A stretch of 39,562 nt of DNA from an uncultured Dokdonia sp. (GTDB lineage Bacteria; Bacteroidota; Bacteroidia; Flavobacteriales; Flavobacteriaceae): NCBI GenBank assembly GCA_913060645.1, contig CAJXSW010000014.1:1-39562 (forward strand), in the 5' to 3' direction. Of the stretch, positions 4,092 to 35,131 are shown piece after piece (the stretch's first letter is position 1; each line of letters begins with the position of its first letter). Under the pieces are notes generated by a model. The model made no database searches, was not told the DNA's origin, and saw nothing but the letters and a program-made list of their open reading frames with translations. A program made the position numbers and the translations under genes.

Positions 4092-4105
4092 GCTTTCGCG
4101 AAAGC
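4092..4105. repeat. Dispersed palindrome GCTTTCGCGAAAGC (perfect copy)
   Basis: A perfect 14-bp palindrome fills most of the 25-bp gap between murD and mraY. Its flanks are the reverse complement of those of the 17796 copy (AATCAC before the palindrome, read on minus), so the element has an orientation beyond its palindromic core. Confidence 0.95.
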
Positions 4106-4109
4106 GTGA

Positions 4110-5348
4110 TTATCTAATTTTCAATGTTATAATTGAAAGTACAGCCAGTAAAATCCCTACAATCCAAAATCTGGAAACAATTTTACTCTCGTGGATACCT
4201 TTCTTTTGATAATGGTGGTGTAGTGGTGACATCAAAAAGATGCGTCTACCTTCACCAAATTTCTTTTTTGTGTATTTAAAATATCCCACCTGCAACACCA
4301 CCGAAAGATTCTCCATTAAGAAAATTCCGCATAGTATTGGGATAAGCCATTCTTTTCGAGTTGCAATAGCAAGCACAGCAATAATTCCTCCTATGGTAAG
4401 ACTACCTGTGTCACCCATAAAAACTTGCGCTGGATACGCATTGTACCATAAGAACCCAATAAGCGCTCCTACAAATGCAGCAATAAATATGAGCATCTCA
4501 CCAGTACCAGGTATGTACATCACATTGAGGTAATCACTAAAAATGATGTTACCAGATATAAATGCAAAAATCCCGAGGGTGAGTACAATAATCGCACTTG
4601 TTCCTGCTGCCAGGCCGTCAATACCATCAGTGAGGTTTGCACCATTAGAAACCGCAGTGATTATAAATATTACAATAGGTATAAATATGATCCACGCATA
4701 TCCTTTCCAATCTTCGTTAATGCTTGTAAGGATTGTTTCATAATTGAGTTCGTTATCCTTGACAAATGGTATGGTAGTTTTTAAACTCTTATGCGCTTCA
4801 TCAAATTTTGCATCCCCTCTTACAGTTGTAATTTCTACTTTTTCTGTACCAGCAGTTTGTTTGATCTCTTCACGGATAGTGATATCACTATGAAAAAACA
4901 TCGTTGCACCTACTATAATTCCTAATCCTACTTGACCTATTACTTTATACTTACCAGCAAGTCCGTCTTTATTTTTTTGCATTTTCTTCTTATAATCATC
5001 TAAGAAGCCTATGATTCCCATCCATACCGTTGTAACGATAAGAAGAAGGATATATATGTTTTGTAAGTCACCTAACAGTAGTACAGGAATAAGCGTAGCA
5101 CCTATGATAATAAGGCCTCCCATCGTAGGAGTTCCTGCTTTTTCTGCTTGACCTTCTAGACCTAAATCGCGTATTTGCTCCCCCATCTGCTTGCGCTGCA
5201 AGAGCTTAATAATGCGCTCTCCATAAATAGTAGAAAGTCCTAATGATAATAACACCGCAAGTGCAGCACGAAACGTACTGAACTGAAACAACCCTGCTCC
5301 AGGCAAGTTATAAGCTTCGTCTAACCATTGAAAAAGATGATACAGCAT
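4110..5348 (-). CDS. mraY: Phospho-N-acetylmuramoyl-pentapeptide-transferase
   Basis: MraY moves phospho-MurNAc-pentapeptide onto undecaprenyl phosphate to form lipid I at the membrane. The 412 residues form about ten transmembrane helices. Catalytic motifs visible are DDYKK at 117-121, [12 protein letters not shown] starting at 238, and HHHYQKKG near the C-terminus. It is longer than the roughly 360 residues of proteobacterial MraY because of a hydrophilic insert at about 155-215. I know longer MraY proteins from Bacteroidota, so this is probably lineage-typical. The ATG overlaps the murE stop by one base (TAATG), a coupled arrangement. Confidence 0.97.
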
Positions 5349-6811
5349 TACTTATTAAGTTGTTTAAGGGTTTCTTGTACTATTTTATAATCGTCAAAAT
5401 CAAATCGCTCTCCCATTATCTCTTGGTAAGTCTCATGACCTTTACCCGCGATTAGAATTATATCTCCAGGATTTGCAAGTTGGCAAGCTGTTTTTATAGC
5501 TTGCTTTCTATCTGTGATAGATAAAATCTTTTTGTAGTTAATAGGCTCAACACCTGCTTCTACTTGCTCGATAATTGCTTCTGGCTTTTCTGAGCGCGGA
5601 TTATCACTTGTGATAATTGTCTTTGTACTCAGAGCACTTGCAATATGCCCCATTTTAGGACGCTTTGTAGTATCTCTATCTCCACCAGCTCCTACCACCG
5701 TAATGAGCTCCTCATTTTTAGTGCGGATATCATTTATAGTCTCTAGCACATTTTTAAGTGCATCTGGGGTGTGTGCATAATCTACAATTGCCGTCACATT
5801 CCCTTCAGAAATAAAATACTGAAATCGACCTGACACGCTTTCTAACTCACTTAGGAGCTTAAGCGCCTCTATTTGATCAAGCCCCAAAAGCTCTGCAGTT
5901 GCAAAAATGGCTAGTAAATTATAAGCATTAAATGACCCTATAAGCTTTACCCAAACTTCTTGATCTTGAATTTTAAGTAATAATCCAGACAATTGGTTTT
6001 CTAAAATCTGCGCTTTATAATCTGCATATGATTTTAAGGCGTAGGTTACTTTCTTTGCCTTAGTATTTTGAACCATTACCGCTCCGTTCTTGTCATCTGT
6101 GTTTACAAGTGCAAAAGCAGTTTTAGGTAACTCGTCAAAAAATTTCTTTTTTACGTCCCTATATTCTGCAAAGGTGTCGTGGTAATCTAGATGGTCGTGA
6201 GATAGATTTGTAAAAATTCCTCCCTCAAAATGTAAGCCTTCTGTTCGCTTTTGATGAATCCCATGTGAACTCACCTCCATAAAACAATACTCTACACCTG
6301 CCTCAGACATCTCTGCCAGGTATTTATTTATTGTTAAACTATCTGGAGTAGTATGCGTCGCTTTATACTCAGTCTTATCTACTAAAATCTTTACCGTAGA
6401 AAGCAATCCTGTTTTATAACCTGCATTTTGAAACAGTTGGTATAACAAACTAGCGATAGTGGTCTTACCATTAGTTCCCGTAATACCTATAAGTTTTAAG
6501 TTAGCAGAAGGGGTTCCATAAAAATTAGAAGCTATTGTAGCGAGTGCGCTAGAAGTATCTGCTACCTTAACGTATGTTATTCCGTTTACGATTTGCTCTG
6601 GAAGTTCCTCACAAATAATCGCTAGTGCACCTTGATTTACAGCTTTTGCTATGTAATCATGACCATCACTTTGCGTACCACGCACTGCAACAAACACGTC
6701 ATTAAGTGACACTTTGCGCGAGTCAAAATGAACATTAGTAATTGCCACGGCAGTGTTACCCACCACAGTTTCTAGCGTTACTTTATATAATATGTCTTTA
6801 AGTAGTATCAA
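5348..6811 (-). CDS. murE: UDP-MurNAc-L-Ala-D-Glu--2,6-diaminopimelate ligase
   Basis: MurE adds the third stem-peptide residue in the cytoplasm. The 487-residue protein has the ATP loop [10 protein letters not shown] at 109-118 and, in the C-terminal domain, DNPR at 403-406. In this family that motif goes with meso-diaminopimelate rather than lysine, so A1-gamma peptidoglycan is expected. The start is TTG, overlapping the ftsI stop as TTGA. No ATG lies nearby and the family N-terminus fits this start. It is tightly packed between ftsI and mraY. Confidence 0.96.
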
Positions 6812-10659: not shown

Positions 10660-10673
10660 GCTTTCGCGAAAGC
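10660..10673. repeat. Dispersed palindrome GCTTTCGCGAAAGC (perfect copy)
   Basis: Perfect 14-bp copy in the mraZ-hydrolase spacer, 94 bp before the plus-strand -7 element. The right flank GCACCAAAAC resembles that of the 23881 copy (GCAACAAAC). Confidence 0.95.
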
Positions 10674-12301: not shown

Positions 12302-12688
12302 CTAATAGGATTCTATAATTTTATTGACTTGCTCAATAAGTTCTTGAGAAGATGCAATACCAGCAAATGCATCTGCACTTATTACAACTCCCAGACCAGC
12401 TTCTGTAACTGCTAGCACCAAAGGAAATTCATACTTAGGCAACCACTTAGATTTATAAGCTTTTAAAAACTCATCCTTGTGAAGAAATTCTAATGGAGTA
12501 TGTACGCTTTCGCGAAAGCGTAACCATTCCTCCTTTTCCTTAAACACTCCATGAGTAATCTCACAGAGTGCACATTGATAAGTTTGTGGACGCACCACTT
12601 TATGAGCTGCGTCTAAAAGGGCGTTTATTGCGCCAGAGTTTGCGTTGTACACAAACAATAGCTTGTGAAGCTTACTTTTTATCTTCAA
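12302..12688 (-). CDS. Conserved hypothetical protein beside gldC
   Basis: I do not recognise a named family. The conserved core begins at HKLLFVYNANSG and carries a CxxC pair (CALC) near residue 40. The start is uncertain: only TTG or GTG codons are available. TTG at 12688 (chosen, 128 residues) overlaps gldC by 17 bp; TTG at 12718 would overlap by 47 bp, and TTG at 12658 would trim into the core. A perfect copy of the dispersed palindrome lies in frame at 12506-12519, where it encodes RFRES. Because it follows gldC closely, it may be co-transcribed with the gliding genes, but nothing in the sequence assigns it to gliding. Confidence 0.75.
   Translation of the reverse strand: MKIKSKLHKLLFVYNANSGAINALLDAAHKVVRPQTYQCALCEITHGVFKEKEEWLRFRESVHTPLEFLHKDEFLKAYKSKWLPKYEFPLVLAVTEAGLGVVISADAFAGIASSQELIEQVNKIIESY
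12506..12519. repeat. Dispersed palindrome inside a coding sequence
   Basis: Perfect 14-bp copy (18-bp palindrome ACGCTTTCGCGAAAGCGT at 12504-12521) within the hypothetical gene next to gldC. It is read as LRFRESVH on the minus strand, so it keeps the frame open. Confidence 0.95.
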
Positions 12689-13013
12689 GGTCAAGGTGTT
12701 CTGCAAAATAATCTGCAAAATCTTTCATGGTATCTGCCATTTTCTCATCATTTGTAGCACGACGAAAAGACTCTGTCATACCCACAAGTACTTGGTGGAA
12801 AAATTGCTGCATTTCATCTACAGGCATATCTTTTGTCCATAAATCAATACGTACAGTTTCCTTTTGATTAGGATCCCACAAAGAAAGAAGCATTGCTTTT
12901 GCTTCCTCGTTTGCTACTCCACCATCACGTGCGGTCCAAGCCATACTTTCTGGAACACGATTCTCATCAAGTTCGATTGCTATTTTAATTTCAGATTTTT
13001 CTTTCTTAGCCAT
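12672..13013 (-). CDS. gldC: Gliding motility protein GldC
   Basis: GldC is a small soluble protein of the flavobacterial gliding system. The 113 residues have no signal peptide, are acidic and end in a helical stretch (MKDFADYFAEHLDLEDKK). The call rests on overall similarity to remembered GldC sequences (start MAKKEKSEIKI, middle TKDMPVDEMQQFF) and on its place directly after gldB, 3 bp apart, as in gliding Bacteroidota. The molecular role of GldC is not well defined; gldC mutants glide poorly. Confidence 0.9.
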   Translation of the reverse strand: MAKKEKSEIKIAIELDENRVPESMAWTARDGGVANEEAKAMLLSLWDPNQKETVRIDLWTKDMPVDEMQQFFHQVLVGMTESFRRATNDEKMADTMKDFADYFAEHLDLEDKK

Positions 13014-13016
13014 TCC

Positions 13017-13970
13017 TTAGGGTTTGTATTTTGCGTTTGCAAAGATAATAGTTGCATCTTGATTCAATAAGACTTTAAGCGATACATCGTTGTTATCCAT
13101 ATATGATTTTACAATCTCATGACCTATATATCTCCCCACTCGACCAGGTGTCTCATTGTCAAAGGAAAGATAGAATTTTGAGAAAGGCGCTGGATTTATA
13201 AAACGACCTAAAAGCTTTCTATCTGTACTATATAACAGTTCGTTTTTTACAAAGAACTCCCACATATTTTTTTCATTCTCTTGTGCAAACAATAACTCCT
13301 CAGGTGTATAACCTAATATTTCATGTGCAGGTGTCTCACTAAGCAATAGCTGCATGAGGTATAGTTTTTTACCTTCATGTATGATCTCAGAAAGGAAATC
13401 CTTTTGACGTAATCTATTAGCTTTAGTTTTTGCAAATGCAGCTGCTATATCAACTGGCATCTGCTCTTTTCTAAAAATCTTGCTTTGAAATTTTGGAATA
13501 CCTACATAAAAATGATGGTCTGCACCTAAGTACGTATCTAATCCTATTAACAAGAGGCTATCTGCTAGTACCACTTTATTTCTATAATCTACCTCTGTCG
13601 TTAAGGTTACAATCTTAGGAACTGTAGTTTCTGGGAAGTAATACTTAATATGACGAAAAAGATCTTCTATAGAAGCTTTTTCACTCTCAAAATCCGGAAA
13701 TACTTTTGCAATCTCCTCGTTAATTTCTAGCTGTATAGTATCTGTAAAACGTTGTGCCCAGTACTCATCAGGAAATTTATTTGAAAACAAATACGGAAAC
13801 TCTGCTTTTAGTGGCGCTAGATCTTCCTTTGAAGCAGCTGCAAACAGTTGATCAAATCTTCTCACCTTCATATCTACAGATATTGCTTTGATTTCTGGTG
13901 GAGTCTTTGTGTCTTCTGTACAACTAGTAAGGCATACCAGCAATGACAGAATTATAAGTATTTTATTCAT
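13017..13970 (-). CDS. gldB: Gliding motility lipoprotein GldB
   Basis: GldB is an essential lipoprotein of the Gld/T9SS gliding machinery of Bacteroidota. The ATG at 13970 gives a lipoprotein signal MNKILIILSLLVCLTSC with lipobox Cys17; an in-frame codon at 14033 would bury this signal and is rejected. The mature protein of about 300 residues is mixed alpha/beta, with the family stretches RRFDQLFA near the N-terminus and GYTPEELLFAQENEKNMWEF in the C-terminal half. gldC follows directly. The gene is divergent from nadE, and a TACTTTTG element lies 73 bp before its start codon. Confidence 0.93.
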   Translation of the reverse strand: MNKILIILSLLVCLTSCTEDTKTPPEIKAISVDMKVRRFDQLFAAASKEDLAPLKAEFPYLFSNKFPDEYWAQRFTDTIQLEINEEIAKVFPDFESEKASIEDLFRHIKYYFPETTVPKIVTLTTEVDYRNKVVLADSLLLIGLDTYLGADHHFYVGIPKFQSKIFRKEQMPVDIAAAFAKTKANRLRQKDFLSEIIHEGKKLYLMQLLLSETPAHEILGYTPEELLFAQENEKNMWEFFVKNELLYSTDRKLLGRFINPAPFSKFYLSFDNETPGRVGRYIGHEIVKSYMDNNDVSLKVLLNQDATIIFANAKYKP

Positions 13971-14042
13971 AGAGTTTGTATCTTTATATTCAAGAAAAAC
14001 GAGTCCTTTTCTTAAAGTGTATATTTCATACATTTAAGGATA

Positions 14043-15016: not shown

Positions 15017-15655
15017 ATGAACAAAGTTTTAATAGCAGACCACCACCCAATAACGCGTAAAGGAATTACTTCCATACTTCTCGCGGAAGGGAACTATGAA
15101 GTTATAGGACATGTTAACGATGGTAATGACCTTCTTAACACCCTGACTACAACAGAGATTGACATCCTCATTCTCGAGATAGACATTCCCAACCTCAATA
15201 GTATTACTGCACTAAAGGCAATCAAAAGAGAATTTCCTCATATCAAGATATTAGTATTGAGCTGTCATCCAGAAGAGATGTACGCTTTAAGCGCTATAAA
15301 ATATGGTGCTTCTGGTTATGTAGCAAAGACCGCTTCTATACAGCGCGTGCTTAATGCTATAAACCAAGTACAGCGAGGAGGAATCTACCTTAATGAAGCG
15401 CTTAGCCAGAGACTCGTAAGTGATGGTAACGCAACACAAGGACTAGCATTTAAGTATAAAAAACTCTCTAGTAGAGAGATAGAAGTATTAAACTTATTAT
15501 CTAATGGAAAGCGCAATAAGGAAATTGCAGCAGAGCTAGACATTAACGAGAAGACAGTAAGTACTTATAAAATGAGACTCCTTAAAAAACTAGAAGCACA
15601 AAACGTTGCAGAGCTTATAAAGCACGCAAGATTATTACAGAGCAGTCACGTTTAG
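15017..15655 (+). CDS. LuxR/NarL-family response regulator with an atypical receiver
   Basis: A 212-residue protein with an N-terminal receiver domain (about 1-120) and a C-terminal LuxR-type helix-turn-helix (about 145-205: LSSREIEVLNLLSNGKRNKE, then EKTVSTYKMRLLKKL). In NarL-type receivers the phosphorylated Asp lies four residues before the loop Pro; here that position is Glu54 (LEIDIP, Pro58). The usual acidic pair ADDHP is ADHHP, so the second Asp is His9. Lys104 (VAKTAS) is kept. No histidine kinase is adjacent. It is therefore probably phosphorylation-independent or held in one state; this is inference. It lies between nadE and dnaG, with its stop overlapping the dnaG stop by 4 bp in convergent orientation. 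Confidence 0.9.
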   Translation: MNKVLIADHHPITRKGITSILLAEGNYEVIGHVNDGNDLLNTLTTTEIDILILEIDIPNLNSITALKAIKREFPHIKILVLSCHPEEMYALSAIKYGASGYVAKTASIQRVLNAINQVQRGGIYLNEALSQRLVSDGNATQGLAFKYKKLSSREIEVLNLLSNGKRNKEIAAELDINEKTVSTYKMRLLKKLEAQNVAELIKHARLLQSSHV

Positions 15656-17628
15656 ACAGATAGTACTCGCCCTAGTTTATTACCTAGCAATGTATTGAGA
15701 GATTGATAATCGAGAATATCTTTTATAATTTCTTTATTGTCTGTACTATCCTTGGTTTGATTCATCAACTCTTTTATCTTTTCTGTAATAAGATATTTTC
15801 TAAGACTCAATACTGTTTCCGTAACAAACTGCCCGACAGAAGTATCTTTCTTACGCACATAAACCTCTCGTGTATCCCAGCGGTGAAGCTCATACTTCTC
15901 ATCATTGAGAATAATATTAGATATCTCACTAGCTTCCTCTGGAGCTAGCTCGTTGATAAAGTTCTGAACCTGGAAATTATTATCCAAATGCATTTGTGCC
16001 ACTATTTTACCATAGAGCACCTTGAAGAGGTCATTTGTAAATTCCACCTCATCATCTTGAAGGTCAAGATAGATCTTCTCAAAAACTCTCGCCTTATGAA
16101 TGATAGGCTCTAGCTCAAGACTACCATCCTCATTTTCTTTAAGAACAAGATCTTCAAAATCCTCCTCTACTTGACCATATAAAAGCAATGACTCTATAAG
16201 CTTGCGCTCAAGCTCATAAAGTACATTAACCTTCTCGACAGCATTAGGCATCTCATCTGGCACCACAGACATATATTCTGGTGGTGGTGATTGATTACCT
16301 CGATCCTGTTTTACAGTTTCCTTTTTATCTTTTTTGAGTATTTGAGCTAGCGTATTATAAAGAACTGTTTCAGAAACCTCCATGATACGTGCACACTCTT
16401 GCACATATATTTCTTGCTTTATGGCATCAGGTATTTTTGAAATACTCTCCACCATATCGCGTACAGTATCTGCCTTTTTAATAGGATCACCAGCTGCCTC
16501 TTTTACAAGAAGATTTGCTTTGTACTGTATAAAGTCTTTTGCATTCTCATCAAAGAAAGCGACGATTTCTTCTTTACTATGCTTTCGCGAAAATGAATCT
16601 GGGTCCTCACCCTCTGGAAAAGAACACACCTTTACGTTCATTCCCTGCTCAAGAATCAAATCGATTCCTCTTAGTGCAGCTCGCTGTCCTGCGGCATCAC
16701 CGTCAAAGAGAACCGTAATATTTTTTGTCAAACGATTTACTAATCGTATTTGCTCTGGAGTAAGCGCTGTTCCAGAAGAAGAAACCACATTCTCTATCCC
16801 AGACTGTACCATCTGGATTACATCCGTATAGCCTTCTACTAGGTAACAGTTATCTTCCTTTGCTATAGATTGCTTTGCATAATAGATACCATAAAGCACT
16901 TTACTCTTGTGATAGATATCACTTTCTGGAGAGTTAAGATACTTTGCAGCTTTCTTACTACTATCTAATATTCTACCTCCAAAACCAAGCACACGACCAC
17001 TCATAGAATGTATAGGGAACATCACTCGACCTTTAAATCGGTCAAATTGTTTCTCCTCCTTTACAATGGAAAGTCCGGTTTTTTCTAAGTAATCTAGTTT
17101 GTATCCTTGACGTATTGCCTCACTTGTAAAAGCATCCCATTGATCAGGATTATATCCTAACTCAAATTTTTCAATAGTCGCTGCAGTGAAGCCTCTTTCC
17201 TTAAAATATGAAAGACCTATTGCCTTTCCTTGCTCAGAGTTGAGCATTGTTTTATGGAAATAATCACGAGCATACTCACTCACGAGATACATACTCTCAC
17301 GCTCATTTGCAGCCTCCTTTTGCTCATCTGTACGCTCTGTCTCCTCTATCTCAATATTATACTTTTTAGCAAGGTACTTTATGGCTTCTGGATAGCTAAA
17401 ATGCTCATGTTCCATTAAGAATGAAACAGCAGAGCCTCCTTTACCTGTAGAGAAATCTTTCCAAATTTGCTTAACAGGACTCACCATAAAACTAGGCGTA
17501 CGCTCGTCAGAAAATGGAGAGAGCCCTTTAAAGTTTGATCCCGACTTTTTAAGAACCACAAAATCCCCTATCACCTCCTCTACACGAGCAGTTTCAAAAA
17601 CTTTATCTATGGTTTCTTTGGATATCAA
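15652..17628 (-). CDS. dnaG: DNA primase with a degenerate zinc-binding motif
   Basis: DnaG makes RNA primers at the replication fork. The 658 residues show the N-terminal domain, a TOPRIM core (YLVEGYTDV, then LFDGDAAGQRAALRG, then PEGEDPDSF) and a C-terminal helicase-binding region. The CHC2 zinc finger is unusual: the normal C-x2-H-x17-C-x2-C ligands are Ser37, Ser40, Asp58 and Thr61 with the spacing kept, so it should not bind zinc there. The start is TTG, preceded by a good TACTTTTG promoter. A near-perfect dispersed palindrome at 16581-16594 lies within the gene and encodes SFSRKHS between the TOPRIM core and the helical region. Confidence 0.95.
   Translation of the reverse strand: MISKETIDKVFETARVEEVIGDFVVLKKSGSNFKGLSPFSDERTPSFMVSPVKQIWKDFSTGKGGSAVSFLMEHEHFSYPEAIKYLAKKYNIEIEETERTDEQKEAANERESMYLVSEYARDYFHKTMLNSEQGKAIGLSYFKERGFTAATIEKFELGYNPDQWDAFTSEAIRQGYKLDYLEKTGLSIVKEEKQFDRFKGRVMFPIHSMSGRVLGFGGRILDSSKKAAKYLNSPESDIYHKSKVLYGIYYAKQSIAKEDNCYLVEGYTDVIQMVQSGIENVVSSSGTALTPEQIRLVNRLTKNITVLFDGDAAGQRAALRGIDLILEQGMNVKVCSFPEGEDPDSFSRKHSKEEIVAFFDENAKDFIQYKANLLVKEAAGDPIKKADTVRDMVESISKIPDAIKQEIYVQECARIMEVSETVLYNTLAQILKKDKKETVKQDRGNQSPPPEYMSVVPDEMPNAVEKVNVLYELERKLIESLLLYGQVEEDFEDLVLKENEDGSLELEPIIHKARVFEKIYLDLQDDEVEFTNDLFKVLYGKIVAQMHLDNNFQVQNFINELAPEEASEISNIILNDEKYELHRWDTREVYVRKKDTSVGQFVTETVLSLRKYLITEKIKELMNQTKDSTDNKEIIKDILDYQSLNTLLGNKLGRVLSV
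16581..16594. repeat. Dispersed palindrome, degenerate copy inside dnaG
   Basis: GCTTTCGCGAAAAT matches 12 of 14 positions. It is read as FSRKHS on the minus strand, just after the conserved PDSF stretch of DnaG. Confidence 0.75.
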
Positions 17629-17749: not shown

Positions 17750-17781
17750 AATAGCCCAGACATTTAAATATCTGAGCTATT
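17750..17781. terminator. Hairpin terminator between the outer-membrane protein gene and dnaG
   Basis: The 11-bp stem AATAGCCCAGA / TCTGAGCTATT has one wobble pair and a 10-nt loop. The outer-membrane protein gene (minus) ends 40 bp before it, so it should stop that transcript ahead of dnaG. The longest T-run lies on the plus-strand side, and a U-rich tail (TCTATTTG) follows on minus, so it may work both ways. Confidence 0.7.
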
Positions 17782-17795
17782 CTTTTTTTAATCAC

Positions 17796-17809
17796 GCTTT
17801 CGCGAAAGC
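17796..17809. repeat. Dispersed palindrome GCTTTCGCGAAAGC (perfect copy)
   Basis: Perfect copy between the terminator and the stop of the outer-membrane protein gene, with the fuller flanks ATCAC before and GTAAC after the core. Confidence 0.95.
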
Positions 17810-17821
17810 GTAACAACTAAC

Positions 17822-18916
17822 CTATAAGTCTAATCGCAATCCAAGAGAAACATTATTTACCTCTCCCAGCTCTACCGTTTTAAACGCCGAACTCAAATCG
17901 TACTTAGCATACAAGCTAAGGTCTCCAGTCACTCTTATGTAACTTGATAATCCATAAACTAGGTTATCACCGTCGTAGTCTTGACGCGACTTCGTTTTTA
18001 TACGGTCGCCATTTTCTTTGTATTTCAACTTTTGCTGAGTTCCTAAGCGCACCCCTGCATATCCACCTATTCCCATTCTAAATTTACCACCCGTTCTGTA
18101 ACGCACATAATCTTCCTTCTGTTCTTTTTTCCATCCTCCAAATTCAAAATGCAACGGCACCACAAGGTTTGTCACTCTGATTTTTGCCTTTTTAAGATCA
18201 AATGGAAATTCTTGAAAAGTATTTTCTCCATCTACACTTTCTAAAGTTCTGTTGTCTTTAATAGATAAAAAATTGCTTTGTAAGGAGAGTCCATACTTAA
18301 AATGTAGCGCTCCAGAATTTTGGAAAACTCTAGTTTTCCAAGCGTACCCCAACTCCACAAACGTAGATTTACCTATAGAAAAGTCATCACCTATATCTGC
18401 ATCATCACTTATCGCATTATTGAGACCCATTGCAAAAACGGTTTCTCCATAGGTACGTCTGTCGTAATTTGTTACTCCAGGTTTATTTCTATTTACAGCA
18501 ACACCTAATACTCTATTACCATCTCGATCAACACCTCCTAATCCAATCTCAACCGAAGTTCCATAATAGGGATTCATGTGTCCGGTACGCTTCACTAATT
18601 CTATTTGATTATCAATAATTGCTAACTCATTTTCTATATTAAGTGCTATTTCTTCTGCTGCTTCTTTTTTTCTCTCCTCTACTTCAGCAGCGCTTAGATC
18701 TAGCTTCTCTTGTTGCGCATTTATATATTCAATACGTCTTTTAAGTGTTTGTTTCCAGTTTTCTGTTAGTTGCTCTTTTCTTTTTTCTAGAGCCGACACT
18801 TGGCTCACGATATCCCCAGAGACTTCTTTCTTGACTTCCTCAACCTCTTGCGCATGCACATTTTGGGCAAAGATAATCACTGTTGCCGCTAGGGCAATTT
18901 TAAAAATTGACTTCAT
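17822..18916 (-). CDS. Exported coiled-coil plus beta-barrel outer-membrane protein
   Basis: The product has 364 residues with a Sec signal peptide at about 1-22 (ends NVHA). Residues 25-110 are charged and heptad-rich, very likely a periplasmic coiled coil. From about 113 on the sequence alternates polar and hydrophobic residues with many Gly and aromatic positions (GTSVEIGLGG, YGLSLQSNF, KFRMGIGGYAGVRLG) and ends in SLGLRLDL, as outer-membrane barrels do. I do not recognise a named family. It is the third gene of a set with an ECF sigma factor and a membrane protein, 51 bp after the latter, so it may be a sensor or a target of that sigma system. Confidence 0.8.
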   Translation of the reverse strand: MKSIFKIALAATVIIFAQNVHAQEVEEVKKEVSGDIVSQVSALEKRKEQLTENWKQTLKRRIEYINAQQEKLDLSAAEVEERKKEAAEEIALNIENELAIIDNQIELVKRTGHMNPYYGTSVEIGLGGVDRDGNRVLGVAVNRNKPGVTNYDRRTYGETVFAMGLNNAISDDADIGDDFSIGKSTFVELGYAWKTRVFQNSGALHFKYGLSLQSNFLSIKDNRTLESVDGENTFQEFPFDLKKAKIRVTNLVVPLHFEFGGWKKEQKEDYVRYRTGGKFRMGIGGYAGVRLGTQQKLKYKENGDRIKTKSRQDYDGDNLVYGLSSYIRVTGDLSLYAKYDLSSAFKTVELGEVNNVSLGLRLDL

Positions 18917-18967: not shown

Positions 18968-19765
18968 TTAATTATCTTTATTTGCAACTGCTTCTACAGC
19001 TCTATTAAACTCTTTTTTGAGCGTGCGGAACATTCTATCTTTAAAGGAGTCTGGATCAACCTCTGCCTCTACATCTAGCAGTAATTCGTTTGCATTTACT
19101 ACTGGAGTTTGTGCTTCATAGATTTTCTGTCGCTTTATTTCAGTTTGTGCATTTTTAAGTAGCATATCGACCTCATCATCCGTTACAGAATAGTCACTTA
19201 CATCAACGACTGTAACTCCATTATTTTCTTGAGACACATAAGCCTTGTTAAGTGACTTATCACTTAACATTCCGTCATTAACGTTACCTACCTTAGCTAC
19301 GGCATTGTTTTTAGTTGAAGCAACTGTGGCTGTTGGCTTATAATTATTGCGGTATGTTTTGGTAGCAGTATTAGTTTTTTGCTTCGCATCACGCTTTCGC
19401 GAAAGCGTAACTTCATCATTCTCCACCTCTGCTGCAGCATCCTTTTCTACAACCTCCACCACCTGTATGTTCTCAGTGTTCCTTAAATTAATATTACTTG
19501 CATCTTCTTTATCGATGGTATTATTAATAGTTTCTGGCGTTTGTACTATTTGATTTTCTATTCCACCACTATCACCTCCAAAAATGATAGCTGTAAGAAA
19601 AACACCTGCAATAAAACTAGCTGCAATAGCAAGCCAGAACACCATGCCATTTTTCTTTTTACCCTGCTCCGTCTCAAGTTTACCCTCTATACGATCCCAA
19701 GCAGATGCGGTAGGTGCTATACGGCGACCTTCCAACTTTTCTTTAAAATTATCTTCTAACTTCAT
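18968..19765 (-). CDS. Single-pass membrane protein, probable anti-sigma factor
   Basis: The protein has 265 residues from the ATG at 19765; an ATG three codons upstream (19774) is equally possible. The N-terminus (DNFKEKLEGRRIAPTASAWD) is a short helical cytoplasmic segment of the kind that binds sigma factors in Bacteroidota. One transmembrane helix lies at about 41-62, and the remaining 200 residues are low-complexity and presumably periplasmic. It overlaps the end of the ECF sigma gene, the usual arrangement for a sigma/anti-sigma pair. The anti-sigma role is inferred from topology and position; no zinc-binding (ZAS) motif is seen. A perfect dispersed palindrome lies in frame at 19393-19406, encoding LSRKR. 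Confidence 0.75.
   Translation of the reverse strand: MKLEDNFKEKLEGRRIAPTASAWDRIEGKLETEQGKKKNGMVFWLAIAASFIAGVFLTAIIFGGDSGGIENQIVQTPETINNTIDKEDASNINLRNTENIQVVEVVEKDAAAEVENDEVTLSRKRDAKQKTNTATKTYRNNYKPTATVASTKNNAVAKVGNVNDGMLSDKSLNKAYVSQENNGVTVVDVSDYSVTDDEVDMLLKNAQTEIKRQKIYEAQTPVVNANELLLDVEAEVDPDSFKDRMFRTLKKEFNRAVEAVANKDN
19393..19406. repeat. Dispersed palindrome inside a coding sequence
   Basis: Perfect copy within the probable anti-sigma gene, read as TLSRKRDA on the minus strand, a different frame from the copy at 12506. It lies in the variable periplasmic region. Confidence 0.95.
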
Positions 19766-20318
19766 TGGTCCCATTATTAATTAATTCTTCTTCAAGTTTT
19801 GCTTGCAATTGCTTCCTTGCCTTAAACAACTGACTTTTTGAGGTGCTCTCACTTATTCCTAGTGTAGTCGCTATCTCCTTGTGTTTGTATCCCTCTATAG
19901 CATACATTATAAAAACTACACGGTATCCCTCTGGCAGATCATCTATTAAACTCTGGATGTGTGCCACCTCGAGATCTGTCTGGATATTATTTATAGCATC
20001 GTTGCTCTCAATCTCACCATCTTCTGTGAAGCACAACTTCTTTATCGCACGTAAGTAAGAAATGCTTTCCCTTACCATAATCCTGCGTATCCATCCTTCA
20101 AAGCTTCCTGAATTTTTAAAACTATCTAGCTTTGTAAATACTTTTAAAAACCCGTTACACATAGCCTCCTCTGCCTGATGTACATCCTTTATATAATAAC
20201 GACACACACTTAGCATCTTAGGCGCGTGCTGCTCATAAAGTACTCGTTGAGCGTCTCTATTGCCTTTTATAGCTTTTTTAATAAGCTGTTTCTCGTTATT
20301 AAACTGTATGACTTTCAT
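19749..20318 (-). CDS. ECF-type RNA polymerase sigma factor
   Basis: A sigma-70 family factor of 189 residues with only regions 2 and 4. Region 2 runs from about 20 to 90 (VLYEQHAPKMLSVCRYY, then GSFEGWIRRIMVRESISYLR). Region 4 covers about 130-180 (LPEGYRVVFIMYAIEGYKHK, then EIATTLGISESTSKSQL). It directs polymerase to promoters I cannot identify here. It is the first gene of a three-gene set with the membrane protein and the outer-membrane protein, which suggests a cell-envelope signalling pathway. It has no TonB-receptor neighbour, so it is not a typical FecI/FecR-type unit. Confidence 0.92.
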   Translation of the reverse strand: MKVIQFNNEKQLIKKAIKGNRDAQRVLYEQHAPKMLSVCRYYIKDVHQAEEAMCNGFLKVFTKLDSFKNSGSFEGWIRRIMVRESISYLRAIKKLCFTEDGEIESNDAINNIQTDLEVAHIQSLIDDLPEGYRVVFIMYAIEGYKHKEIATTLGISESTSKSQLFKARKQLQAKLEEELINNGTNEVRR

Positions 20319-21215: not shown

Positions 21216-21229
21216 TTTTTCGCGAAAGC
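21216..21229. repeat. Dispersed palindrome, degenerate copy
   Basis: TTTTTCGCGAAAGC keeps 12 of 14 positions. It lies in the rsmG-desaturase spacer, about 70 bp before the desaturase start. Confidence 0.6.
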
Positions 21230-23707: not shown

Positions 23708-23721
23708 GCTTTCGCGAAAAC
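23708..23721. repeat. Dispersed palindrome, near-perfect copy
   Basis: GCTTTCGCGAAAAC differs at one base. It lies 15 bp after the aspartate aminotransferase stop, before its terminator, with the flank AATTAC before and ATAACA after. Confidence 0.85.
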
Positions 23722-23760: not shown

Positions 23761-23880
23761 TAATATCTCTAATTCCACAATAAGTCTTAATATTCTTCTG
23801 CGTAATAAGGCACCCAAGCGACCATATAATTTACTTGTGAATAAGTATCTTAGTAACGTAATAGTGAGTGAGAGAATACC

Positions 23881-23894
23881 GCTTTCGCGAAAGC
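23881..23894. repeat. Dispersed palindrome GCTTTCGCGAAAGC (perfect copy)
   Basis: Perfect copy 66 bp before the DUF885 lipoprotein start and 173 bp from the degenerate copy at 23708. An open frame runs through it into the gene, but that extension has no lipoprotein signal and is not real coding. Confidence 0.95.
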
Positions 23895-23960
23895 GCAACA
23901 AACACTTTAAAACAACGTAAACTGCAGAAAACTATAGCTGCAACTTCTATAATCTTCCTT

Positions 23961-25745
23961 ATGAAAAAAACACTACTCGCAGGAATAATGGCCTTAAGCC
24001 TAATAGCCTGTAAAAACGATGCCCCAACAGAAACAGCTAGTACAGCAGACACATCACTAGCTTTTAACAATGTGCTAGACAACTATTATGAAGACGGACT
24101 AAAGCTTAACCCGCTTAACGCGACGATGTCTGGAGATAATAGATATAATGACAAATTTCCGGACGCATTATCTCAATCACATAAGGATGCAGTAAAGATA
24201 TATTATACTTCGTACCGCGACTCTATCCAGCAATTTAACGACAGTGACCTCACAGACACAGAGAAGATGAGTAAAGAGGTACTACTCTGGGATATTGCCA
24301 TCAATATAGAAGGTATGGAGTTTAAAAAAGATCTCACTCCTATAGACCAGATGTGGTCTCCACATCTTATGTTTGGCCAGCTTGCGAGTGGAGCGAGTGC
24401 GCAACCATTTAACACTGTAGAAGATTACCGCAACTGGCAGCAGCGCGTAGATGAGTACCTAGTATGGCTCAACAGCTCAGAACAGAATATGCGCCAAGGA
24501 ATGAAAGAAGGCTACGTACTTCCTAAGTCTCTTATTAAAAAAATTATCCCACAAATGGATGCTATGACAGAGGCAACTGTAGAAAATCACTTGTTTTACA
24601 AGCCTGTAGCAAAATTCCCAGAAGGAATAACAGACGAAGATAAAAACACTTTACGCACAGATTACGTTGCGATGATAGAAGGTAAAGTTATCCCTGCTTA
24701 TGCAAAGATGCGCGATTTCCTACAAAATGAGTACCTAGCTGCTGGTCGCGATAGCTCTGGCTATAGTGACCTACCTGCAGGTAGCGATTATTATGACTAT
24801 GCTATCAAACTTTATACTACCACTACAATGAGCGCAGACGAGATACACCAACTCGGCCTGAGCGAGGTTACTCGCATACGTACTGAGATGGAAAAAGTAA
24901 AAGAGCAAGTTGGCTTTAAAGGAGACTTAAAAGCATTTTTTGATGATGTACGTACTAACAAAAAACTAATGCCCTACAGTACTCCAGAAGAAATCATTGC
25001 AAATTTTAATGCAATGCATGAGACCATTAAACCTCAAGTAGATTTACTTTTTAGCGTACAACCTAAAACAGCTTTTGAAGTGAGACAGACAGAAGCATTT
25101 AGAGAGAACTCTGCAAGTGCAGAGTATAATCCTGGATCGCTTGATGGAACTCGACCAGGTATTTTTTACACACCTATACCAGATGCTAGTACATATAATG
25201 TATATTCAGATGAGTCATTATTTTTACATGAGGCTGTTCCTGGACACCACTTCCAGGTGTCACTCACGCAAGAGAGCGAGACACTCCCACAGTTTAGAAA
25301 AACATTATGGTATAGCGCATATGGTGAAGGCTGGGCATTGTATACAGAATCGCTTGGTAAAGAGCTAGGACTTTATACAGATCCTTATCAATATTTTGGA
25401 ACACTGGGAGCTGAGATGCACCGCGCAGTTAGACTTGTGGTAGATACAGGAATCCACACTAAAGGATGGAGCCGCGAGAAAGCGATTGCTTATTGTCTAG
25501 AAAATGAAGCAGAAAGCGAAGCAGGTATTACATCAGAAATTGAGCGCTATATGGCAAATCCGGGACAAGCGCTTTCTTATAAAATTGGCCAACTTAAAAT
25601 TAGAGAGTTGCGCACAAAAGCAACCCAAGAGTTAGGTGATAAATTTGATATCAGAGAGTTTCACAAAGAAGTACTTGAGACGGGATGTATCCCACTTGCA
25701 CTACTTGAGGAAAAAATTAATGCTTGGATAGAAGAAAGTAAATAA
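23961..25745 (+). CDS. DUF885-family lipoprotein, putative metallopeptidase
   Basis: A lipoprotein of 594 residues with signal MKKTLLAGIMALSLIAC and lipobox Cys17. The ATG at 23961 is chosen for this signal; an upstream in-frame ATG at 23868 would start a protein with a non-signal N-terminus read through a repeat. The DUF885 signature is clear: HEAVPGHH at about 423-430 followed by EGWALYTE at about 456-463, which look like metal ligands and a catalytic Glu, so a zinc peptidase-like activity outside the cytoplasm is likely. The substrate is unknown. purT follows 60 bp downstream on the same strand, with no terminator between. Confidence 0.92.
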   Translation: MKKTLLAGIMALSLIACKNDAPTETASTADTSLAFNNVLDNYYEDGLKLNPLNATMSGDNRYNDKFPDALSQSHKDAVKIYYTSYRDSIQQFNDSDLTDTEKMSKEVLLWDIAINIEGMEFKKDLTPIDQMWSPHLMFGQLASGASAQPFNTVEDYRNWQQRVDEYLVWLNSSEQNMRQGMKEGYVLPKSLIKKIIPQMDAMTEATVENHLFYKPVAKFPEGITDEDKNTLRTDYVAMIEGKVIPAYAKMRDFLQNEYLAAGRDSSGYSDLPAGSDYYDYAIKLYTTTTMSADEIHQLGLSEVTRIRTEMEKVKEQVGFKGDLKAFFDDVRTNKKLMPYSTPEEIIANFNAMHETIKPQVDLLFSVQPKTAFEVRQTEAFRENSASAEYNPGSLDGTRPGIFYTPIPDASTYNVYSDESLFLHEAVPGHHFQVSLTQESETLPQFRKTLWYSAYGEGWALYTESLGKELGLYTDPYQYFGTLGAEMHRAVRLVVDTGIHTKGWSREKAIAYCLENEAESEAGITSEIERYMANPGQALSYKIGQLKIRELRTKATQELGDKFDIREFHKEVLETGCIPLALLEEKINAWIEESK

Positions 25746-25749
25746 TACC

Positions 25750-25797
25750 GCTTTCATGCAAGTGAAGTTTACACCGAGCTTGCCGAAGTGCGAAAGC
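25750..25797. repeat. Dispersed palindrome split by a 34-bp insert
   Basis: GCTTTC at 25750-25755 and GCGAAAGC at 25790-25797 rebuild the palindrome exactly. The 34 bp between them (25756-25789), read on minus, contain CTTCGGCAAGCTCGGTGT, which resembles short TTCGACAAGCTCAGTGT-type repeats I know from Bacteroidota genomes. The following AAAAC matches the right flank of the 30810 copy. Confidence 0.6.
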
Positions 25798-30728: not shown

Positions 30729-30733
30729 GTCAT
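30641..30733 (-). CDS. Possible small basic peptide between eno and gltA
   Basis: ATG at 30733 (or GTG at 30751) to TAG at 30641 gives 30 (or 36) residues: MTLSWVRAGSYASML, then a basic aromatic end SFFKWILKRFKI. It looks like an amphipathic, possibly membrane-active peptide. The frame runs through hairpin module 1 (30676-30716), so it could equally be non-coding terminator DNA that happens to be open. No ribosome-binding evidence or known family supports it; listed as a weak candidate. Confidence 0.25.
   Translation of the reverse strand: MTLSWVRAGSYASMLYTRSFFKWILKRFKI
30676..30716 (-). terminator. Probable intrinsic terminator upstream of gltA (module 1)
   Basis: Read on minus, AAGAGCG pairs with CGCTCTT around a 27-nt loop and is followed by a run of T (into 30671). 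The long loop makes it weaker than module 2. Confidence 0.6.
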
Positions 30734-30809
30734 ACTTGCTTGTTTATTCACTAACGATGCAACGAATGAGCCAGGTAAAAATTTAAAGAACTATATAGAT
30801 TTAAATTTC

Positions 30810-30823
30810 GCTTTCGCGAAAGC
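30810..30823. repeat. Dispersed palindrome GCTTTCGCGAAAGC (perfect copy)
   Basis: Perfect copy in the gltA-eno spacer, flanked by TTTC and AAAACCT. Confidence 0.95.
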
Positions 30824-31070
30824 AAAACCTACACAATTTTTAAAGATCATAATTTGGAAATATAAAATTAATGTATTTGAACGCGTTTACAACAGTATCT
30901 AGGTAAGATTTTACCTACTTTTCTATTTTTACATAAGACACTGAATTCAGTAGTAATAACCAATAATTTAAACAATAAAGAGTGCTACTAGTTTTAATTT
31001 TAAAAGAAAAATTACATTTCACTAAGCACATAAACCTAAAAATCCGTTATTAGACGGAAATTGAGGAAAT

Positions 31071-31101
31071 AAAAATGCCCTCTCATGGAGAAGGCATTTT
31101 T
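31071..31101 (-). terminator. Intrinsic terminator of eno
   Basis: Read on minus, AAAAATGCC pairs with GGCATTTTT, and the stem extends inward through GAGA/TCTC to a 3-nt loop. The 3' arm ends in five T. It lies 24 bp after the eno stop. Confidence 0.9.
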
Positions 31102-31125
31102 CAAATAATATAATTCTTATAATTA

Positions 31126-32427
<1,302 letters not shown>

Positions 32428-32496
32428 TTATTAGTTACGTAAAAATACGATTTTGATGATGATTTTGTGAAGTCAATGTTCTTTTGTAGCGATAAC

Positions 32497-32510
32497 GTTT
32501 TCGCGAAAGC
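32497..32510. repeat. Dispersed palindrome, near-perfect copy
   Basis: GTTTTCGCGAAAGC differs at one base, in the eno-carA spacer, 82 bp before the eno start on the minus strand. Confidence 0.85.
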
Positions 32511-32529
32511 ACAAATTTTAAAATAAAAA

Positions 32530-32560
32530 AATCCCCATCTTAGTTATTAAGATGGGGATT
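32530..32560 (-). terminator. Intrinsic terminator of carA
   Basis: Read on minus, a 13-bp stem AATCCCCATCTTA / TAAGATGGGGATT with a 5-nt loop is followed by a T-run, 6 bp after the carA stop. Confidence 0.94.
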
Positions 32561-32566
32561 AAATTT

Positions 32567-33679
32567 TTAAGCTGTGACACTTTTAATATTATCTATAAAT
32601 TGATCGAACAAATATGTTGCGTCGTTAGGTCCAGGGCTAGCTTCTGGGTGATATTGAACTGAAAAACAATTCTTATCCTTAAGCTTAATTCCTGCAACAG
32701 TGTTATCATTAAGGTGAACGTGCGTTATCTCCACATCGTTATTAGATTCTGTTTCTTCTCTATTTATAGCAAAGCCATGGTTTTGAGAAGTAATTTCTCC
32801 TTTACCAGTAACCAAGTTCATTATAGGATGATTGATCCCACGGTGTCCATTGTGCATTTTATAAGTAGAAATACCATTTGCGAGTGCTATCACTTGATGC
32901 CCTAAACATATTCCAAATAATGGATCGTTTGCACTAATGATATCTTTAGCAACTTGTATTGCGTTTTCAAGTGGCTCAGGATCTCCAGGTCCATTAGATA
33001 AAAAATATCCGTCTGGATTCCATTCTTTCATCTCCTTATAAGTAGTATTATACGGGAAGACTTTTACGTACGCTCCTCTTTTTGCAAGGTTTCGTAAAAT
33101 GTTACGTTTGATACCAATATCTAATGCTGCAACCTTAACCTCGGCATTTTCTTCGCCAAAATAGTAAGCATCAGCGGTTGATACTTTTGAGGCTAATTCT
33201 AGTCCGATCATATCAGGAACCTCAGATAACTGTTTTTTCAAACCTTCAATATCATCTACGGCTGTTGAGATAACTGCATTCATAGCACCATTATCACGTA
33301 TGTGTGCAACAAGTGCTCGAGTATCAACATCTGAAATAGCGAAAAGCTTACTGTCATTTAAGAAAGATTCCAGAGACTCTTCTGCATCTTTTCTTGAGTA
33401 TGTGTAGCTGAAATTTCTACAAATTAAACCAGAAATTTTTACAGTGTCAGACTCAGTCTCAACATCTGTTGCGCCATAATTACCTATATGAGCATTTGTA
33501 GTTACCATTAACTGACCGAAATATGATGGATCAGTAAAAATTTCTTGATAGCCTGTCATTCCTGTATTAAAACAAACTTCACCAAAAGAAGTTGCTTCTT
33601 TGTCTCCTACAGATTTACCGTGAAAGATTGTTCCGTCTGCAAGTAATATTATGGCTGGTCTTCTAGATTGATATTTCAT
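32567..33679 (-). CDS. carA: Carbamoyl-phosphate synthase small (glutaminase) subunit
   Basis: CarA releases ammonia from glutamine for the CarB subunit, feeding arginine and pyrimidine synthesis. The protein has 370 residues from the ATG at 33679. The class I amidotransferase triad is visible: Cys258 (GICLGHQ), His344 and Glu346 (QYHPEASPGP). The N-terminal CPSase domain shows TGMTGYQEIFTDPSY. The in-frame codon at 33706 is rejected because the TACTTTTG element at 33704-33711 implies transcription starting downstream of it. carB is not in the window, so the two subunits are encoded apart. Confidence 0.96.
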   Translation of the reverse strand: MKYQSRRPAIILLADGTIFHGKSVGDKEATSFGEVCFNTGMTGYQEIFTDPSYFGQLMVTTNAHIGNYGATDVETESDTVKISGLICRNFSYTYSRKDAEESLESFLNDSKLFAISDVDTRALVAHIRDNGAMNAVISTAVDDIEGLKKQLSEVPDMIGLELASKVSTADAYYFGEENAEVKVAALDIGIKRNILRNLAKRGAYVKVFPYNTTYKEMKEWNPDGYFLSNGPGDPEPLENAIQVAKDIISANDPLFGICLGHQVIALANGISTYKMHNGHRGINHPIMNLVTGKGEITSQNHGFAINREETESNNDVEITHVHLNDNTVAGIKLKDKNCFSVQYHPEASPGPNDATYLFDQFIDNIKSVTA

Positions 33680-33703
33680 TTTTTGTTTTTTCCTTACAGA
33701 AGA

Positions 33704-33711
33704 CAAAAGTA
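33704..33711 (-). promoter_or_regulatory. Promoter -7 element TACTTTTG of carA
   Basis: Exact TAnnTTTG match on minus, giving a predicted leader of about 18 nt before the ATG at 33679. No -33 TTG is visible at the usual distance. Confidence 0.55.
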
Positions 33712-33754
33712 GTGAATATACTCTTTTGAAAAAAGAATAGTTTTATCACTGACG

Positions 33755-34471
33755 TTAATTAGGAGAAGATCTAAGCGTGCTTAATTTTGAAAACATTTTC
33801 TTCAAATCATGATCTTCTTTATACGACAACTTATTTTCTTTAATATATTGAACCATTACATCCTCATAATCATTAAAAATTGAGAGTACAGAGGATTTCT
33901 TTGGTTTAAATTTCTTAAACTCTCCTTCACTTATAAGGTAATAGTTCGTATTACTTACATATTCATCAGGCTCTTGTCCAACTTGTATATCAAATTTTCC
34001 TTCTCTTATTCTGACGTTATGGTCTTTCAACAAAGAAAGGTCATCAGATTCGTATATAACTTCCATTAATCTAGATATATTATCTTGAGGATTTAAAGTT
34101 CTTTTGAAAATTAAATCATTTATACTAACAGAACTGACAACAAATTGATTTACATCTAATAGATACTCTCCCTCTTTAAAAGAAAATGTCCCTCGTTCCT
34201 TATCAAAGTTAATATTACGTACATCTATAACTTGCTTATTCTGCGTTATTACTCTAGCAGAACTAAGCCAATTATCAAACAGAAACTTATCACCCTCTAT
34301 CTTAGTTGCAGCCTTAAATGTTCTGCCCGAATAGTTGCCTCCATCAAAATTGACCAATGACCCATCGATAGCTTGATTAGAATTCAAGCTAGACATAAAC
34401 GTCACATCTTCAGATTGACCGAATGCTGTTAGGGAATTAATAAGTAAAACGGAGATTAAGAAATATTTCAT
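33755..34471 (-). CDS. Exported hypothetical protein
   Basis: I do not recognise a family. The ATG at 34471 gives 238 residues with a Sec signal peptide (MKYFLISVLLINSLTAFGQ, cleavage probably after residue 17-19); an in-frame codon at 34513 would put 14 residues ahead of the signal. The mature protein is polar and predicted mixed beta with a Lys-rich helical end. There is no lipobox Cys and no C-terminal sorting domain. It sits between rplQ and carA, separated from the ribosomal operon by a terminator and from carA by the carA promoter, so it is its own unit and looks like an insertion into a conserved order. Confidence 0.75.
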   Translation of the reverse strand: MKYFLISVLLINSLTAFGQSEDVTFMSSLNSNQAIDGSLVNFDGGNYSGRTFKAATKIEGDKFLFDNWLSSARVITQNKQVIDVRNINFDKERGTFSFKEGEYLLDVNQFVVSSVSINDLIFKRTLNPQDNISRLMEVIYESDDLSLLKDHNVRIREGKFDIQVGQEPDEYVSNTNYYLISEGEFKKFKPKKSSVLSIFNDYEDVMVQYIKENKLSYKEDHDLKKMFSKLSTLRSSPN

Positions 34472-34569
34472 AACTATAAAGTTGTTTTGTTTACTAATAT
34501 AATGCGCTAGCAACGGAACTCAACAGGAATTCGAAATCTTAACAAGATATTATGACTCTTTTGAAATCG

Positions 34570-34601
34570 AAAAAGGCCCTGCTTAATAGCAAGGCCTTTT
34601 T
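34570..34601 (-). terminator. Intrinsic terminator of the ribosomal protein operon
   Basis: Read on minus, AAAAAGGCC pairs with GGCCTTTTT with an extended inner stem (TTGCT / AGCAG with one mismatch). It lies 24 bp after the rplQ stop and ends the operon. Confidence 0.92.
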
Positions 34602-34625
34602 AAAACTGTCTAGATAAAAAATTAT

Positions 34626-35099
34626 CTATTCTTCTTCGTTAGAAGCTTTTTCTTCAGTTGCAGCAGGTGCTACAGCTTCAGCTTTTTTACTTCCACGACG
34701 AGTATTCTTCTTTTTTGCTGGTTTACCTGGGCTATAAATCTCGTTGTAATCAACAAGTTCTATCATTGCCATATCAGCATTATCCCCAAGACGGTTACCC
34801 ATCTTGATAATACGAGTATAACCTCCTGGACGATCACCAATCTTTGCCGCTACATCTCTGAATAATTCAGTTACTGCATCTTTTTGGCGAAGCTTTGCAA
34901 AAACGATACGACGATTATGAGTAGTATCTTCTTTTGACTTTGTGATCATTGGCTCAACAAACTGCTTTAAAGCTTTTGCCTTTGCCACTGTCGTGTTTAT
35001 TCTTTTATGTTCAATTAAAGAGCAAGCCATGTTTGCAAGCATAGACTTTCTATGTGCAGTCTTTCTCCCTAAGTGATTAAATTTCTTTCCGTGTCTCAT
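34626..35099 (-). CDS. rplQ: 50S ribosomal protein L17
   Basis: L17 is a large-subunit protein near the exit tunnel. Residues 1-117 are the conserved core ([20 protein letters not shown] at the start, RPGGYTRI later). The 157-residue protein has an extra 40-residue tail rich in Lys, Ala and Glu, beyond the roughly 120 of proteobacterial L17; such tails occur in Bacteroidota. It is the last gene of the alpha operon. A perfect dispersed palindrome lies 18 bp before its ATG. Confidence 0.97.
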
Positions 35100-35117
35100 T
35101 GTAATATGTATTTTCCC

Positions 35118-35131
35118 GCTTTCGCGAAAGC
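35118..35131. repeat. Dispersed palindrome GCTTTCGCGAAAGC (perfect copy)
   Basis: Perfect copy in the 57-bp rpoA-rplQ spacer, inside a highly expressed ribosomal operon and close to the rplQ translation start. Confidence 0.95.

Follow-up and report, generated by a model that had tools for sequence, protein, structure and literature searches.

The palindrome in the window and across the family

The window, by which we mean the whole 39,562-nucleotide stretch analyzed here (contig CAJXSW010000014.1 from an uncultured Dokdonia sp. of the Flavobacteriaceae), carries eight exact copies of the 14-bp palindrome GCTTTCGCGAAAGC, each at the position given for it in the original prediction. When up to two mismatches are allowed there are 12 matches, against 0.09 expected from dinucleotide-preserving shuffles. 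Gene calls here and below follow a simple open reading frame (ORF) rule rather than a gene finder, samples cover part of each genome, and gene names are mostly provisional readings of the sequence, with GldB and DUF5689 checked against Pfam. By this rule six of the eight exact copies lie in spacers, so the earlier description of the element as sitting mainly in spacers fits the window; it does not extend to a sample of the genome G016, where 66 of 134 copies lie within ORFs.

We compared this 40-kb region across eleven Dokdonia genomes with 75–96% identity to the window over the aligned parts, one of them (G002) contributing 19 kb only; the counts of aligned genomes that follow include the window, and no strand is assigned to any site. 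The copy at 4092..4105 lies in the spacer between ORFs that we take to be mraY and murD and is exact in 7/7 aligned genomes, while that at 10660..10673, in a divergent spacer by a presumed mraZ, is exact in 7/8 and missing in G004. The copy at 17796..17809, in a spacer adjoining an ORF that is presumably dnaG, is exact in 9/10 (missing in G013), and that at 35118..35131, in the rplQ–rpoA spacer, in 9/11 (missing in G012 and G004). Between ORFs assumed to encode citrate synthase and enolase, the copy at 30810..30823 is exact in three of the 11 genomes aligned (G000, G009, and G008), has one mismatch in two (G006 and G012), and is missing in six. The copy at 23881..23894, upstream or at the very start of ORF 23868–25745, is exact in 6/7. 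Two copies lie within minus-strand ORFs. One, at 12506..12519 in ORF 12302–12718 (which matched no family in a Pfam search), is exact in 7/8, with a near copy about 25 bp off in its place in G013, and in G225, from a sister genus introduced below, where the protein is 51% identical, a site lies no more than 2 bp from the homologous codon. The other, at 19393..19406 in ORF 18968–19774, is exact in all genomes in which it can be aligned, namely the window and its two closest relatives. Throughout this comparison the 14-mer is usually exact despite diverged flanks, and some sites are missing in some genomes.

The four near copies that had been predicted are also real. Those at 16581..16594 (inside ORF 15652–17628) and 21216..21229 have two mismatches each, which in the latter are both in one outer end; those at 23708..23721 and 32497..32510 have one. 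The 23708 site is exact in G009, G006, G008, G003, and G016, and gapped in the four more distant genomes. A split copy proposed at 25750 turned out to be part of an imperfect inverted repeat (25741–25797), just upstream of an ORF that we read as purT, which recurs in the same form in G006, G008, G003, and G016 and is not an interrupted copy. The window also encodes the gliding-motility lipoprotein GldB (13017–14033; PF25594, E 5e-103).

The genome from which the window derives contains 705 exact copies in 3.11 Mb (219 contigs), against none for the reversed-pattern control, so the window, with 8 in 39.6 kb, is typical and close to the genome average. Copies confined to the window, or present at the level expected from composition, would have spoken against the predicted chromosome-wide role; these counts leave that role standing. 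Comparison of rpoA and a tree both place the window in Dokdonia, of which all 18 genomes analyzed, including that of the window, carry 369–905 exact copies each. The count of 899 for G016 is at least five too high, because the two ends of its contig G016:C1 (L097 and L127) overlap by ~18 kb at 99.96% identity.

Outside Dokdonia the palindrome is rare. In a draw of 397 Flavobacteriaceae genomes, 79 had at least one copy: six were rich, 73 had 1–19 copies, and the remaining 318 had none; the reversed control matched once, in G355. The six rich genomes comprise two Dokdonia (G000 and G012), three from genus g11 (578, 664, and 609 copies), and one from genus g205 (408 copies), whereas 23 genomes of other families of the order had zero copies. 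In a tree built from rpoA together with the 640 bases preceding it, g11 clusters with a locus from a named Nonlabens (support 100/100) and g205 is sister to Dokdonia (100/99). On the strength of this one locus we call g11 Nonlabens-like (its members include G275) and g205 the sister genus (G225). Two changes suffice to explain the motif-rich pattern on this tree, and a single motif-rich clade is not rejected (p-AU, from the approximately unbiased test, 0.33), so one origin is possible. The idea that other genera use their own dialects of the palindrome found no backing: among the repeated words shown for 73 loci of 10–21 kb from other genomes, in a scan that would miss weaker or shorter motifs, there was no palindromic 12-mer, only a few non-palindromic 12-mers at 3–4 copies and one locus with a tandem array.

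Architecture, spacing, and conservation of the site

The conserved unit extends well beyond 14 bp. Reading outward from the palindrome in Dokdonia, the first base is G in 83–84% of arms, the second T in 56%, and the third A in 74–75%, and the consensus of G, T, A, then A or C is equal on either side. From the third base to position 12, G makes up 1–11% of positions (mean ~6%), then ~7–14% up to position 25 and 17–19% beyond. This poverty in G is equally present in genic and spacer copies, in the Nonlabens-like genus, and in five mobile-looking stretches, while in G225 it is much weaker (16–21% versus 23% beyond the fifth base). When coding sites are read in sense (n = 91), the 3' arm has 9.7% G versus 20.4% and the 5' arm 8.9% C versus 18.2%. 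The copy at 17796–17809 serves as an example: with ~25 bp per side that are G-poor outward after the first flanking base, the composite site would span 17771..17834, bounds that come from averages over 386 arms and 197 sites rather than from that copy alone.

The two arms of one site vary independently (both start with GTA in 17% of 197 sites, versus 14% if independent). Because the flank consensus is equal on both sides and the arms are independent, exact copies show no orientation, contrary to the original prediction; only some near copies are one-sided. Extension of a hairpin through the arms was rejected, as the match between arms was no better than in shuffled sequence. In 757 kb of Dokdonia sequence we counted 197 exact copies (five of them twice, owing to the overlapping G016 ends), 18 with one mismatch, and 41 with two, against 0, 0, and 6 for the reversed control. 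Among copies with two mismatches, many lack just one outer GC, and the C-poor arm is often retained on the intact side. Lone half-sites are not enriched and were rejected as the functional unit. Taken together, the features of the sequence describe one clade-specific, predicted DNA recognition signal of ~64 bp, made up of a dyad-symmetric 14-bp core, usually one further C/G pair, and two outward-G-poor arms.

Copies are far more evenly spaced than chance would place them. In 21 stretches of 20 kb from G016 (two of which overlap), counts per stretch have a mean of 6.4 and a variance of 1.9, with sites in all 21, and three gaps in the Dokdonia sample are shorter than 600 bp, against an expectation of 26. 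Over 520 contiguous kb of G275 the gaps have a coefficient of variation (CV) of 0.43, whereas random placement gives a mean of 0.99 and a minimum of 0.75 in 2000 simulations; one gap is shorter than 1 kb (24 expected). For 460 kb of G225 the CV is 0.71, against a random mean of 0.98 and a minimum of 0.70 in 2000 simulations, and none of the gaps is shorter than 1 kb (8.7 expected). Density in G016 shows no gradient with distance from parS (Spearman -0.18, p 0.42).

Many sites have been kept in place over genus-level time, including within coding sequence. Within Dokdonia, we grouped pairwise comparisons by local identity, noting that such pairs are not independent and that the palindrome itself aids alignment. 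Above 93% local identity the site is identical in 6/6 genic and 54/56 spacer pairs, where neutral decay would leave 53–70%; at 85–93% it is identical in 10/10 genic and 59/71 spacer pairs (neutral expectation 20–24%), at 80–85% in 2/2 and 38/38 (7–9%), at 76–80% in 8/8 and 43/58 (2–3%), and below 76% in 22/34 and 29/59 (1%). Altogether 48 of 60 coding-site pairs are identical; of the 12 that are not, seven are gap-free and five gapped, the latter all in the most diverged class.

Between genera, 42 homologous coding positions (32 distinct targets) could be tested, and 20 of them (10 distinct) have a site within 2 bp. At the others the site is 64 bp off in one case and more than 100 bp off in 21; for positions drawn at random from these genes, a site lies within 12 bp in 2.3% of cases and within 100 bp in 18%. 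Where a site is shared the proteins are 41–67% identical, and in the pairs shown an identical 14-mer stands amid differing neighboring codons, including in ORFs that we take to be recX and dxs. Turnover of sites exists too, as the patchy rplQ–rpoA site indicates: it is present in the window and four named Dokdonia loci, and missing in G012, G004, G225, and three Nonlabens-like genomes.

Candidate machinery and mobile DNA

We searched 26 genomes, nine motif-rich and 17 motif-poor, for machinery that might read the palindrome. Uptake through a type IV pilus is disfavored: the pilus ATPase (PF00437) exceeds the cut-off in just one of the nine motif-rich genomes (G275) and in four of all 26, with weaker matches otherwise in all 26. 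ComEC is found in 9/9 motif-rich and 16/17 motif-poor genomes. ParB_N occurs in all 26, singly in eight of the nine motif-rich genomes; a second match (176 aa) is present in G000 and also in 4/17 motif-poor genomes. Canonical parS occurs in 26/26, with two copies in 23 genomes, three in two others, and a single copy in G000, whose assembly is fragmented, and where both copies are listed in these Flavobacteriaceae genomes they lie ~1.9–2.4 kb apart. These counts speak against a dedicated ParB/Noc paralog or a loss of canonical parS, and a ParB/Noc-type site, one form of the nucleoid or segregation-protein site originally envisaged, is thereby made unlikely. The palindrome does resemble parS and the Noc site, being of similar length with TTTC...GAAA halves as in the Noc site, but it occurs in hundreds of copies with another half spacing, in genomes that mostly have one ParB and have canonical parS besides.

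Restriction avoidance or a methylase core left no clear signal. Outside sites, the observed-to-expected type of ratio for TCGCGA is 0.96 in Dokdonia, 0.79 in the Nonlabens-like genomes, 1.05 in G225, and 0.88 in motif-poor genomes, and CGCG is mildly depleted in each of the motif-rich sets (0.82, 0.78, and 0.81) relative to motif-poor loci (1.03). A screen for binding proteins common to Nonlabens or G225 returned 139 basic soluble candidates, of which those shown were mostly ribosomal or housekeeping proteins and none was convincing. In the Nonlabens-like genome G275 (L352:7368–11681), a gene for an outer-membrane protein with a carboxypeptidase-regulatory domain is followed by one for a DUF5689 protein (E 4.8e-40). 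A copy of the palindrome lies ~40 bp past the DUF5689 gene.

The palindrome is also found in viral DNA, where a stricter site pattern matched 26 stretches. Eighteen viral records chosen for carrying it, some of them near-copies of one another, have 2–7 copies each and 56 in 409 kb, a density of ~1 per 7 kb versus 1 per 3.5–4.4 kb in Dokdonia and G275. We scanned ten proteins from nine viral records, and seven of them, spread over six records, hit phage families with an assigned role, namely portal (two) and head, tape measure, baseplate, primase, and integrase (one each). Among the viral matches listed, 46 of 132 copies have at most eight G in 48 arm positions, as do 95% of Dokdonia sites, and not all of these 46 need be real sites. 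Two closely related Nonlabens phages, P12024S and P12024L, neither of which has an annotated integrase, have no copies in 71 kb, a count whose weight depends on the motif content of their host strain. Searching the site consensus against phage and plasmid records gave weak matches only (best E values 3 and 0.2).

In several low-count genomes the listed copies are clustered, and a spacing of 933 bp recurs in four of them from four genera (G118, G127, G141, and G248). Islands with several palindrome copies were seen in motif-poor genera at L103 and L107, the two in which ORFs were read, and these ORFs look to us like metal-efflux genes. Copies among such genes may have arrived on mobile DNA.

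A possible self-DNA signal or chromosomal anchor

The copy number, even spacing, and conserved positions strongly support the chromosome-wide role proposed in the original prediction. We think it probable that the palindrome represents a previously unrecognized class of DNA signal acting across the chromosome. Its dyad-symmetric, ~64-bp sites would partition the chromosome into ~4-kb cells, with many copies at the same codons since Dokdonia, its sister genus, and Nonlabens split. A putative reader protein would recognize the site either as a palindromic signal for the entry of self DNA, in transformation without pili, or as an architectural anchor placed at regular intervals. We did not find the 14-mer in open-licence PubMed Central papers, and matches to its 10-bp core were off-topic judging by title and the start of the abstract.

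The signal is long, mostly exact, symmetric, evenly spaced, and confined to one or two clades, and we tentatively regard a self-DNA signal for uptake or recombination, kept by natural transformation, as the most likely mechanism. In such a scheme, DNA with the site would be taken up or recombined more readily, and donor copies with the site would replace recipient copies without it. Sites would then accumulate in permissive places and be restored when mutated, and their spacing would approach the length of the exchanged fragments; we propose that a second site close to the first gains nothing, which would lead to even spacing. The G-poor arms, having little single-strand structure, might be the stretch that is melted or threaded first, although this is a guess. 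The link to transformation, and with it the receptor, the drive, the reader of the signal, and its benefit, are things that we infer.

The DNA uptake sequences (DUS) of Neisseriaceae and the uptake signal sequences (USS) of Pasteurellaceae offer the closest precedent. Compared with two reports on them, our site shares their hundreds of exact copies in genes and spacers, restriction to a clade, exact conservation beyond flanks, and spacing more even than chance (PMC2397512, PMC1939737). For Neisseria, the first describes exact conservation beyond the flanks, permissive places, and spacing that matches exchanged fragments (PMC2397512), and even spacing of uptake sequences is noted in the second as reported by others (PMC1939737). 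Our site differs from DUS and USS in being a perfect palindrome, in its G-poor arms of ~25 bp, in its density of one per ~4 kb, in its presence in viral contigs, and in that 8/9 motif-rich genomes lack a type IV pilus ATPase over cut-off. Flavobacteriaceae can transform, and in Riemerella this is reported to occur without known pilus machinery. Besides ComEC, DprA, ComF, and RecA, R. anatipestifer requires four proteins that do not resemble known machinery; they include an outer-membrane protein carrying a carboxypeptidase-regulatory domain and the DUF5689 protein next to it (PMC8459023), the arrangement also seen in G275. R. columbina is reported to favor its own DNA in competition (PMC7965970).

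Several points weigh against this interpretation. The receptor that it requires is hypothetical, and ComEC, present in nearly all motif-poor genomes, does not track the palindrome. The outer-membrane/DUF5689 pair was seen in one genome and was missing from the sequence pieces available for Dokdonia and G225, which fall far short of whole genomes. Gain and loss of sites by substitution is backed only in part, because five of the 12 non-identical coding comparisons are gapped. Uptake sequences of Neisseria and Haemophilus are not known to be palindromic. Transformation in Dokdonia or Nonlabens was not found in a search of the literature that was not exhaustive. A k-mer table for R. anatipestifer, R. 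columbina, and Flavobacterium johnsoniae shows only A/T-rich words and no comparable palindrome (PMC7965970), so the own-DNA preference of Riemerella is not tied to such a motif. The Neisseria DUS is reported to be absent from recently acquired genes (PMC2397512), while viral contigs carry the palindrome. Finally, the evenness of our sites exceeds that expected of uptake sequences by an author of one of the sources (PMC1939737), and such strong evenness may favor the main rival.

That rival holds that the palindrome is the binding site of a chromosome-architecture protein, one per ~4 kb, involved in looping, compaction, segregation, or supercoil handling, and we consider it possible but doubtful. 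Beyond the even spacing and the near exclusion below ~1 kb, it is consistent with a DNA word that is conserved within genes as well as between them, with the occurrence of sites in all 21 G016 stretches without a gradient from parS, and with the dyad symmetry and long arms, which suggest a large symmetric complex. It has no candidate protein, and ParB is single in most motif-rich genomes while canonical parS is found in motif-rich and motif-poor genomes alike; the site in viral contigs would be explained only by an integrated life. Every feature shown here is common to the uptake and architecture readings; what sets them apart is the protein reading the site.

A third explanation, which we judge improbable, is a Chi-like or self-marking function, in which a repair or defense helicase-nuclease spares DNA, or recombines it, at the site. 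The strand entering the palindrome is G+T-rich, which would favor RecA loading, a process favored by G/T-rich strands. The 5' arms are C-poor on each strand, viral contigs carry the palindrome, and its density is near that of E. coli Chi. Unlike E. coli Chi, the site is palindromic and longer, and Chi sequences are not known to reach 14 bp. RecC (PF04257) was found in 0/26 genomes, AddAB lying outside that search, and the two related Nonlabens phages have no copies at all.

Less probable still is a process of the kind proposed for highly iterated palindrome 1 (HIP1) of cyanobacteria, in which the palindrome arises and is maintained through a methyltransferase together with biased mismatch repair. 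In cyanobacteria, HIP1 and alternate HIPs are reported to accompany methyltransferases (PMC4390886). Our palindrome is likewise highly iterated and genome-wide, genes included, and CGCG outside sites is mildly low in the motif-rich sets. It differs in its length of 14 bp, against 8 for HIP1 and long for a methyltransferase, and in its long arms and even spacing; TCGCGA outside sites is near expectation and not over-represented, and the process predicts neither the 25-bp G-poor arms nor the even spacing. A dispersed mobile element of the repetitive extragenic palindromic (REP) or miniature inverted-repeat transposable element (MITE) type, the REP-like origin that had been suggested earlier, shares hundreds of clade-specific copies and the short, dispersed palindromic form of REPs and bacterial interspersed mosaic elements (BIMEs), but is very improbable, as about half of the copies are coding, some at homologous codons, most coding-site comparisons are identical with gaps confined to the most diverged class, spacing is even rather than clustered, and Y1 transposase is found in 0/5 Dokdonia and not in G225 (it occurs in 3/3 Nonlabens-like and 8/17 motif-poor genomes).

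Should the site serve uptake or recombination, this would mean a palindromic signal used by hosts most of which have no type IV pilus ATPase, and the poorly understood transformation machinery of flavobacteria would become directly testable. Should it be architectural, it would be an anchor of precise sequence that recurs regularly throughout the genome, and editing sites one by one would open chromosome spacing to study. In both cases, because the site is sharply limited to its clade and its positions are conserved, a pull-down or an uptake assay would be decisive.

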